A program made the position numbers and the translations under genes. From contig JAIBAH010000016.1 in the NCBI GenBank assembly GCA_019695295.1, positions 1 to 60,284 of the forward strand: a stretch of DNA of 60,284 bases, in the 5' to 3' direction. Positions 27,400 through 31,145 of the stretch are shown here, piece after piece. How positions within the stretch are numbered: the first letter of the stretch is position 1; each line of letters opens with the position of its first letter. This DNA is from Bacteroidia bacterium. GTDB lineage: Bacteria; Bacteroidota; Bacteroidia; J057. The notes below the pieces were generated by a model, which did not search any database, was not told the origin of the DNA, and saw only the letters and a program-made list of their open reading frames with translations.

Positions 27400-29232
27400 A
27401 TGTGTGGTATTGTAGGTTACGTAGGTTATCGCAAAGCTTATCCGATTATTATCAGTGGTCTGAAACGCCTCGAGTACAGAGGCTATGACTCAGCAGGGGT
27501 TGCACTGTATGATGGCAAAATAAAAATCTATAAAAAGAAAGGGAAAGTATCAGAACTGGAAAAACTGACAAAAGATAAAGATACAGAAGGCACCATTGGA
27601 ATGGGACATACGCGCTGGGCTACGCATGGCGCACCAAGTGATGAAAACTCTCATCCTCATGTCTCCAATTCCGGTAACTTCTCCATTATTCACAATGGAA
27701 TTATAGAAAACTATTCAACCCTCAAAAAAGAACTGCTGGGCAGAGGATATACTTTTAACAGCGCAACTGATACAGAAGTGCTGGTAAACTTCATTGAAGA
27801 TATTTATGAAAACAACGAAATTGACGCAACTGAAGCCGTTCGTATTGCCCTGAATAATGTAATCGGAGCCTACGGGATAGTGGTAATGTGCAAAGCGGAG
27901 CCCGAAAAACTGATTGTTGCCAGAAGAAGCAGTCCTATTGCAATCGGTGTGGGAGAAGGAGAATTTATCATCGCTTCCGACGCAACCCCTATCGTGGAGC
28001 ATACCAAAGACGTGGTTTATCTCAATGATAATGAAATTGCAGTAATTACCAAAGAGGGGTACAAAGTTCTGAATCTGAAAAACGAATCTCAGACCCCTTA
28101 TATTCATACCATCGAAATGGAACTGGAGGCTCTTGAAAAAGGGGGATATGACCATTTTATGCTGAAAGAAATTTTTGAGCAGCCCCGCTCAATCGCTGAC
28201 AGTATCCGGGGAAGAATTGACCCTGAAAACAAAAAGGTATGGCTAGGCGGGCTTGTAGATGTCAGAAAAGAACTGGCACAGGCCAAACGTTTTATTTTTG
28301 TAGCCTGTGGCACAAGCTGGCATGCGGGGCTTGTAGGTGAGTACCTGTTCGAGGAGCATATCCGGATTCCGGTTGAGGTAGAGTATGCTTCCGAATTCCG
28401 GTACCGTAACCCGGTAATACAGGAAGGCGATATTGTCATCGCCATTAGTCAGAGTGGAGAGACAGCTGATACCCTTGCCGCCATCAATCTTGCCAAAGAA
28501 AGAGGAGCACTCGTGCTCGGAATCTGTAATGTGGTAGGCTCTTCTATCTCAAGGGCTACTCACGCAGGGGTATATACACATGCAGGCCCTGAAATCGGAG
28601 TTGCTTCTACCAAAGCTTTTACTGCTCAGGTTTCAGTATTAACCATGATGGCTTTATTTATTGCAGACCTGAAAGGAAAACTAACCCCAAAATCCCGTTC
28701 TATCATTCCTGAAATGCTGCAGGTGCCCGAAAAAGTGCGCCACATTGTAAACCAAAGTGATAAAATCAAAGAAATTGCCGCCACCTTCAAGGATTCTCCC
28801 AACTGTCTTTATCTTGGAAGAGGCTCCAATTTCCCTGTGGCGCTGGAAGGAGCCCTTAAGCTAAAGGAAATTTCCTATATCCATGCTGAAGGATATCCTG
28901 CCGCTGAAATGAAACACGGTCCTATTGCGCTGATAGACGAAAATATGCCCGTAATTTTTATTGCAACCAAAGATGAATCCTACGAAAAAATCGTGAGCAA
29001 TATCGAAGAAGTGGCTGCACGAAAAGGAAGGGTAGTGGCAATTGTAACAGAAGGAGATACTGCCGTAAGAAATATTGCAGAATTTGTCATTGAAATTCCG
29101 GAAATTGACCCGTCGCTTATGCCACTCCTTTCTGTAATTCCGCTTCAGATTTTATCTTATCATATTGCAGTAATGAGAAACTGTAATGTTGATCAGCCAA
29201 GAAATCTGGCCAAATCCGTTACCGTAGAATAA
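27400..29232 (+). CDS. glmS: Glucosamine-fructose-6-phosphate aminotransferase (isomerizing)
   Basis: 610 residues, full length. The catalytic Cys follows the initiator Met (MCGIVGYVGY), with RYRGYDSAG-type and GHTRWATHGAPSDENSHPH glutaminase motifs. Two SIS isomerase domains follow (SQSGETADTLAAI, and GYPAAEMKHGPIALID). The C-terminus ends NVDQPRNLAKSVTVE, as in all GlmS. It makes glucosamine-6-phosphate from fructose-6-phosphate and glutamine for peptidoglycan and lipopolysaccharide. The leader before the ATG (27208-27399) shows no ribozyme fold that I recognise and no complete promoter. A hairpin terminator follows the gene. Confidence 0.98.
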   Translation: MCGIVGYVGYRKAYPIIISGLKRLEYRGYDSAGVALYDGKIKIYKKKGKVSELEKLTKDKDTEGTIGMGHTRWATHGAPSDENSHPHVSNSGNFSIIHNGIIENYSTLKKELLGRGYTFNSATDTEVLVNFIEDIYENNEIDATEAVRIALNNVIGAYGIVVMCKAEPEKLIVARRSSPIAIGVGEGEFIIASDATPIVEHTKDVVYLNDNEIAVITKEGYKVLNLKNESQTPYIHTIEMELEALEKGGYDHFMLKEIFEQPRSIADSIRGRIDPENKKVWLGGLVDVRKELAQAKRFIFVACGTSWHAGLVGEYLFEEHIRIPVEVEYASEFRYRNPVIQEGDIVIAISQSGETADTLAAINLAKERGALVLGICNVVGSSISRATHAGVYTHAGPEIGVASTKAFTAQVSVLTMMALFIADLKGKLTPKSRSIIPEMLQVPEKVRHIVNQSDKIKEIAATFKDSPNCLYLGRGSNFPVALEGALKLKEISYIHAEGYPAAEMKHGPIALIDENMPVIFIATKDESYEKIVSNIEEVAARKGRVVAIVTEGDTAVRNIAEFVIEIPEIDPSLMPLLSVIPLQILSYHIAVMRNCNVDQPRNLAKSVTVE

Positions 29233-29260: not shown

Positions 29261-29298
29261 ACAAATCAACCGGCATTCCGGCTGATTTGTTCTTTTTT
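29261..29298 (+). terminator. Terminator of glmS
   Basis: Stem 29261-29268 with 29283-29290, one internal mismatch, then a CCGG/CCGG inner stem, followed by TCTTTTTT. It lies 29 bases past the glmS stop. Confidence 0.8.
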
Positions 29299-29343
29299 AT
29301 TTCTTACAGAAGCAAATCTAACACATAAAAAAGCCGTGTAAAA

Positions 29344-29427
29344 TAAAAAAAACCCCACCGGGCGGTGAGGTTCTCGACTTTGGGGTATTGGTGGGAAAAT
29401 TTAGGTAAGTAAAAAACAGGTCTTTTC
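29344..29427 (-). ncRNA. Candidate small non-coding RNA
   Basis: Predicted transcript of about 80 bases from its own consensus promoter (29433-29464) to a strong terminator. The 5' part is single-stranded and rich in A and C (with CCCACCAAUACCCC). The 3' end is a 9-position stem (29351-29359 with 29364-29372; one G-U) with a GCCC loop and a run of at least eight U's. A minus-strand frame crossing it (29304-29570) reads through both promoter and terminator and is not credible. The C-rich stretch could pair with G-rich messages (inference). It might instead be a relic of a riboregulator for a lost gene. Confidence 0.55.
29345..29372 (-). terminator. Terminator of the small-RNA candidate
   Basis: On the minus strand a GC-rich stem closed by AACCTCACC and GGTGGGGTT with a 4-base loop, followed directly by a long T run. 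The one non-Watson-Crick position is G-U on this strand but a mismatch on the other, so it acts on minus-strand transcripts. Confidence 0.75.
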
Positions 29428-29432
29428 AGATG

Positions 29433-29464
29433 CAAATGTAAAACCTTTTTTTGAATTAAACAAA
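29433..29464 (-). promoter_or_regulatory. Promoter of the small-RNA candidate
   Basis: On the minus strand TTTG (29461-29464), 20 bases, then TACATTTG (29433-29440): full consensus. No gene other than the RNA candidate lies downstream of it on this strand before the terminator. Confidence 0.65.
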
Positions 29465-29789: not shown

Positions 29790-31145
29790 GTGGATATAGA
29801 ACCGCTGAGTTTTAATTTATTAGTTTTCCTTCCTGCAACAGGATTGGATTGGTTTGCAATAAGTATCAATATCTTGCTTTTTTTTGTATTACTATTGGGC
29901 TCATTTTTTGCGTCTTCCTCTGAGGTTGCTTTCTTCTCTCTCAACAAAGCCGAAAGCGACAGCTTCAGGGACGACGATTCCCCCAAGTCCAAAAAGATAT
30001 GGTGGATGCTGAACAATCACAAACATTTAATTGCTACGGTACTCATTACCAATAACTTTGTTAATATTTTTGCGATTCTTACAGGTACTTATGTAATCCA
30101 TACTTTTGCACAGCACTATGGTTTACTGAAATGGCAGGAAACGCTATTGAGTATCGGTTCTATTTCCCTTCTTCTACTTCTTATAGGAGAAATCATCCCG
30201 AAAGTATATGCTTCCCGTTACAAACTAAGGGTAATAGATATGTTTTACAGGCCAATGTACATCCTGATTAAAATTTATTCTCCTATCATTCGTTTTTTAA
30301 TTTATATTACAAAGTTTATTGACAATAAAATCAAGCCCAAACAGGAAAATGCTTCTATTGAAGACCTCAGGGATGCCATAGAAATGATGCCTGAGCCTAC
30401 AAAAGATGAAACCGACGGAAGAGATATTCTGAAAGGATTACTGAATTTCAGCAATACTACAGTAGAAAGAATCATCCGGGAGCGGACCAAAGTAGCGGCC
30501 GTTTCTATTGATACGACTTTTGATGAACTGATAGAGTTTATCAATGAGAATGAATTTTCCAGGGTTCCTGTCTATAATGAAAGTCTGGACGATATAAAAG
30601 GCGTTTTACACATCAAGGACCTGATTCCTTTACTGGAAAACGGCGGAAAATCGGTTGAGTGGCAATCCCTGATAAGGCCTGCACTCTTCGTTCCGGAAAG
30701 CAAAAGAATAGATAAACTGCTGGAAGCTTTCAGGGCCAAAAGAACGCACCTGGCGATTGTAGTGGATGAATACGGAGGCACCACCGGAATAGTAACGCTG
30801 GATGATATTACCGATGAGATATTCGGCGAAATCAGCGATGAGTTCGATACAGAAGCGCTGCCTTACCAGAAACTGGAAGCAAATCTCTATCGTGTAAATG
30901 CGTCTATTCTTCTCAACGATTTTATCCGGATGATAGACCTGGATGAAAATGTATTTGAAAAACTACATAAATCCGAAAATATCAATAGTCTGGGTGGTTT
31001 AATTTTGTTGCTCCAAAATAAAATCCCTTCCGTGGGGGAAACAGTAATCTGTGATTTGACTGACCCTATGTTTGAATTTACGATTGAGTCCGTGAGCAGA
31101 AACAGAATCGAATGGGTAAAAGCTAAAATACTTCAAAATGAATAA
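29790..31145 (+). CDS. gldE: Gliding motility-associated protein GldE (CorC/HlyC family, CBS domains)
   Basis: 451 residues starting with GTG (reading MDIEPLSFN). DUF21 membrane helices fill about 20-170, beginning with an LLGSFFASSSEVAFFSLNK segment. Two CBS domains cover about 205-345 (VAAVSIDTTFDELIEFI, FSRVPVYNESLDDIKGVLHIKD, THLAIVVDEYGGTTGIVTLDDI). The C-terminal CorC_HlyC domain runs from about 360 to 448. The gldD start overlaps its stop by 8 bases, the standard gldE-gldD arrangement, which separates it from ordinary magnesium/cobalt efflux paralogues. In flavobacteria GldE can partly compensate for GldD, but its biochemical role is not known. It sits in the inner membrane. Confidence 0.93.
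   Translation: MDIEPLSFNLLVFLPATGLDWFAISINILLFFVLLLGSFFASSSEVAFFSLNKAESDSFRDDDSPKSKKIWWMLNNHKHLIATVLITNNFVNIFAILTGTYVIHTFAQHYGLLKWQETLLSIGSISLLLLLIGEIIPKVYASRYKLRVIDMFYRPMYILIKIYSPIIRFLIYITKFIDNKIKPKQENASIEDLRDAIEMMPEPTKDETDGRDILKGLLNFSNTTVERIIRERTKVAAVSIDTTFDELIEFINENEFSRVPVYNESLDDIKGVLHIKDLIPLLENGGKSVEWQSLIRPALFVPESKRIDKLLEAFRAKRTHLAIVVDEYGGTTGIVTLDDITDEIFGEISDEFDTEALPYQKLEANLYRVNASILLNDFIRMIDLDENVFEKLHKSENINSLGGLILLLQNKIPSVGETVICDLTDPMFEFTIESVSRNRIEWVKAKILQNE

Follow-up and report, generated by a model that had tools for sequence, protein, structure and literature searches.

A conserved intergenic small RNA family, uncatalogued in Rfam 15 but of a known kind, in one family of Bacteroidia

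In the genome of a Bacteroidia bacterium (GCA_019695295.1), a locus that is very probably a genuine conserved RNA gene was found between glmS and gldE. It lies in the window, by which we mean the whole 60,284-nt stretch analysed here (contig JAIBAH010000016.1, positions 1 to 60,284). A promoter-like box, an exposed core and a covarying hairpin are kept together at several unrelated chromosomal places in genomes of the host family. The RNA is expected to be about 82 nt long, running roughly from 29426 to 29345 on the minus strand, with a start site estimated from the sequence. It represents a small RNA family that is uncatalogued in Rfam 15, but of a known kind. That this is an sRNA is well supported at the sequence level, and we give a probability of about 55% to a trans-acting base-pairing sRNA with the exposed C-rich core as its seed.

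Organization of the locus

Direct reading of the minus strand gives, in this order, TTTG-N20-TACATTTG (29464..29433), a C/A-rich stretch free of structure, and then an intrinsic terminator. The putative sigma-ABfr-type promoter (29433..29464) has its TTTG at 29464..29461, then a 20-base spacer and TACATTTG at 29440..29433, as claimed in an earlier note made from this DNA. The presumed 5' end of the RNA, placed by its distance to the -7 box, and a poorly conserved 5' leader occupy 29412..29426. They are followed by the conserved, exposed C/A-rich core TACTTACCTAAATTTTCCCACCAATACCCCAAAGTCGAGA (29372..29411), a putative seed according to its conservation and the predicted folds. The terminator (29345..29371) begins about 60 bases past TACATTTG with a stem formed by ACCTCACC (29371..29364) and GGTGGGGT (29359..29352), closed by a GCCC loop, and ends in a T-run (29352..29345) of exactly eight T's, where at least eight had been announced. 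One stem pair is odd, being U-G on the minus strand, while a plus-strand reading would give a C/A mismatch and no T-run, so the earlier argument that this pair fixes the strand is sound.

The flanking genes named before were confirmed by their protein family matches. glmS (27400..29232, plus strand; TIGR01135, 807.7 bits) is convergent and lies downstream of the RNA, and gldE (29790..31145, plus strand; TIGR03520, 392.8 bits) is divergent and lies upstream. A second hairpin with a T-run is present on the plus strand directly past the glmS stop codon (window 29265-29299), and it is likely the glmS terminator.

The promoter scores 10/10 against the TTTG/TAnnTTTG consensus, which agrees with its description as perfect, but the score alone is not decisive, since about 2% of Markov-shuffled upstream stretches equal it. 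Folding is only mildly better than that of shuffled sequences (z about -1.5 to -2.3). Neither result settles whether the arrangement arose by chance, and it is the comparison with other genomes that does.

There is no ATG, GTG or TTG inside the expected RNA, although an 88-aa frame with a TTG start runs across the locus. Between the host genome (G000) and G002, another species of the genus, a one-base indel within the best-conserved block places this block in different frames, so its conservation is not coding, in line with the earlier claim of no coding frame. The locus has what is expected of an autonomous intergenic sRNA: a promoter of its own, as far as the letters tell, a terminator of its own with conserved structure, and a non-coding body.

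Distribution in the host family

A DNA search first recovered the element in G001 and G002, the two remaining species of the genus, and covariance models were then built successively from the three genus copies, from five and from ten copies. By covariance search the element is present in 9 of the 13 available genomes of the host family, including all 3 of the genus, with scores of 62.8 to 88 bits (E 1e-17 to 1e-11). The carriers are G000, G001, G002, G005, G006, G007, G008, G009 and G011. The covariance search had been proposed beforehand as a check; it did return homologues, and the RNA, described at first as an orphan, is instead a member of a family. A first-pass pattern search retrieved the genus copies and two coding matches, the latter being rejected as members. 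At the gathering threshold of Rfam 15, neither the window nor the RNA at the loci of its homologues gave a match.

The host genome has one copy, and at most two convincing copies occur elsewhere. The two copies of G005 are in tandem, 250 bases apart (L065:1501-1575 and 1751-1819; G005:C1:5962261 and 5962511), and their stems differ by one compensatory pair, from A-U to G-C. Contigs C2 and C3 of this genome match, at 99.9-100% identity, plasmid records that carry the label 'Pontibacter sp. G13', while G005 groups here with the window's family. Searches of phage and plasmid records returned no match to the RNA.

We were not able to find a convincing copy by covariance search in G003, G004, G010 and G012, which belong to the same family. 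Two of these four genomes, both from one genus, are 99-100% complete, and for this reason loss or strong divergence of the RNA is likely. Outside the family, the final model gave nothing above threshold in nine other genomes of the order. In two samples drawn from the class, of 395 and 394 genomes, nothing outside the family exceeded 35.3 bits, the best match being of about 34 bits; all member genomes falling in these samples were recovered, and very diverged copies could be missed by the stricter filters of these wide searches. Those inspected among the weak matches in other orders and families, the strongest included, sit in genes, share only the terminator or lack the core, and one of the outside matches (L075), a doubtful case, shows some C-rich similarity without synteny or promoter. 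Conservation across Bacteroidota, which the earlier note proposed to look for, therefore holds for nine carriers within one family and not for the phylum at large, as far as sampled.

Conservation of core, terminator and promoter

The C-rich core is the most conserved segment, and its exposed part, CC-ACC..(A)TACCCCAAA, is nearly invariant across the 10 copies. Between G000 and G002, core and terminator are identical at 63 of 67 positions, compared with 193 of 319 in the gldE-side flank and 12 of 21 at 29432..29412. The C/A-rich 5' part, said earlier to be single-stranded, is indeed unpaired in the predicted folds of both RNAs.

In all 10 copies the 8-bp terminator stem is fully paired (all 80 cells), with two-sided changes at 5 of the 8 pairs. 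The covariation score of 0.583 was reached by none of 500 shuffles and collapses once the partners are slid. This ten-copy alignment was fitted to the covariance model and hence leans toward the structure, but a MAFFT alignment of five sequences, not fitted to the model, shows the same stem covariation. Most copies have a C-rich terminator loop.

A promoter-like TAnnTTTG box lies upstream of 8 of the 10 copies, at much the same distance, scoring 10/10 in the window, G002 and G008, 9/10 in G001, G007 and G011, and 8/10 in G006 and G009, while both G005 copies have weak boxes. In G002 the same box is found in the same place with a spacing of 19 bases. Stem and promoter had been named beforehand as what close relatives should keep, and both are conserved there.

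Possible targets and partners

We suggest that the RNA would be transcribed from the sigma-ABfr-type promoter as an independent intergenic transcript of about 82 nt, with transcription stopping at the hairpin. The C-rich core, perhaps together with the C-rich terminator loop, would then be exposed to G-rich mRNA sites in trans, a few of which may be paired and thereby blocked or destabilised, possibly with the help of an RRM-type RNA-binding protein. Pairing with G-rich targets, as the earlier note proposed, is plausible.

Complementary targets do not stand out. In the 13 genomes, a search for sites complementary to the core, allowing 3 mismatches at most, gave fewer matches than the reversed pattern (self-sites included), mostly in coding sequence, and long complementary sites showed no excess over this reversed-pattern control. 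Of 709 start regions, drawn from about 1.15 Mb or about a quarter of the host genome, 60 were predicted to hybridise with the RNA at -16 kcal/mol or better, whereas shuffled RNAs gave 77 +/- 14. A pattern combining the seed with a nearby ATG could not be used, as TTT-GGG-GTA occurs often in coding sequence.

The absence of outstanding targets for a core conserved almost letter-for-letter across genera would suit a protein-binding decoy, in which the C/A-rich core binds an RNA-binding protein, of the RRM type for instance, that the RNA sequesters, rather than serving as an mRNA-pairing seed. Proteins with RRM domains are encoded in all 13 family genomes, and in Bacteroides the protein RbpB binds sRNAs in their single-stranded parts (PMC11697453). 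However, RRM proteins are equally present in the four genomes where the RNA was not found, so they are available partners but not specific evidence, and we regard a decoy as rather unlikely.

Two G-rich sites were observed. In G005 (C1 1394414-1394431; L112:1413-1575), a G-rich stretch in the intergenic space separating a TonB-receptor gene from an AraC-family regulator is complementary to the sRNA core at 17 of 18 bases. A TAttTTTG box precedes this stretch, and a terminator-like hairpin follows it directly. Chance alone, scaled by the counts in the control, would supply about a quarter of one site as good as this in the nine carrier genomes, and the context of the site was judged after the fact, so we take it as a lead only. 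In G009 (C86 86900-86917; L106:1476-1540), another TonB-receptor gene has a terminator-like hairpin downstream, whose loop contains a G-rich stretch complementary at 16 of 18 bases, a weaker case. It would be a long shot that the C-rich sRNA is half of a pair, the other half being a G-rich intergenic RNA with a terminator of its own that some genomes encode and that acts as its sponge or antisense.

Genomic context

The element of G002 lies beside gldE as in the window, with the same promoter and terminator, and in G001 it is found elsewhere, its neighbours being a thioredoxin-like gene and a member of the PorP/SprF family. Six carriers (G005 to G009 and G011) have the RNA downstream of crcB and on its strand, and past the RNA there is often a redoxin-family gene in convergent orientation. 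The crcB call in G008 relies on an antisense frame and synteny only. Having gldE, a porP/sprF-like gene or an upstream crcB as its neighbour in different genomes, the RNA behaves as an autonomous gene.

Within the crcB group some copies could be 3'-UTR products, since the RNA is on the crcB strand and, in G007, about 200 nt downstream of it. Extended to most genomes, this would make the element the transcript end of a gpmI-lipoprotein-crcB operon, with the C-rich stretch acting as a processing or termination signal. We consider such an origin improbable. The genus of the window has the RNA elsewhere (divergent from gldE or beside the porP/sprF-like gene) and with its own promoter of 9-10/10, boxes scoring 8 to 10 out of 10 occur in G006, G007, G008, G009 and G011 too, and an ordinary terminator has no need of a conserved 20-nt single-stranded core.

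A short terminator-ended transcript also resembles an attenuator, and the best sub-threshold Rfam matches of the RNA are leaders. All matches up to E 10 are weak, though, and far below the gathering scores, and in four carriers (G000, G001, G007 and G009) the gene that follows is convergent, which argues against a leader. Against a leader peptide stand the lack of start codons and the indel, which breaks the frame within the conserved block. We hold it very improbable that the RNA is an attenuator or leader for a nearby gene or encodes a leader peptide. Least probable of all is a chance co-occurrence of promoter-like and terminator-like words: such words are common in an AT-rich genome and several other copies have promoter scores that lack significance taken singly, but eight further genomes contain covarying homologues, at E values as low as 1e-17.

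Comparison with known sRNAs

In the Firmicutes C-rich sRNAs RsaE/RoxS and IsrR, exposed C-rich motifs are the most conserved part, as in the RNA described here, and they pair with G-rich Shine-Dalgarno sites. The present RNA differs from these in showing no excess of pairing at the start regions screened. One article (PMC9976891) states that Shine-Dalgarno sequences are not recognised by Bacteroidia ribosomes.

For a base-pairing sRNA with a single-stranded seed and a terminator there is precedent in Bacteroides, in FopS (PMC11697453) and GibS (PMC7366714). The RNA is most likely built on a plan like that of the FopS sRNAs, but it is not a demonstrated FopS member. The RbpB-associated, multicopy FopS family is likewise intergenic, with a sigma-ABfr-type promoter and an unstructured 5' part directly before a Rho-independent terminator, the single-stranded part being conserved (PMC11697453). 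The folds and promoter scores obtained here show this same plan, a single-stranded 5' part and terminator behind a sigma-ABfr promoter. FopS has 12-15 paralogues, whereas the RNA is usually single copy here (two in tandem in G005) and so lacks the multicopy character, and FopS comes from a different bacterial family. It is not among the Rfam matches up to E 10, in a copy of Rfam that may or may not include it. GibS of Bacteroides thetaiotaomicron is trans-acting and likewise largely unstructured, with a conserved 5' seed and a terminator (PMC7366714). In contrast to the canonical promoter and about 82 nt found here, it has 145 nt, the non-canonical promoter motif 2 and two extra hairpins.

Few descriptions exist of regulatory RNAs from Bacteroidota beyond gut Bacteroides. 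A compact, family-wide sRNA with a near-invariant seed and a covarying terminator, in genomes bearing RRM proteins, offers a defined test object, and this sRNA family would be useful to study how sRNAs act where ribosomes ignore Shine-Dalgarno sites.
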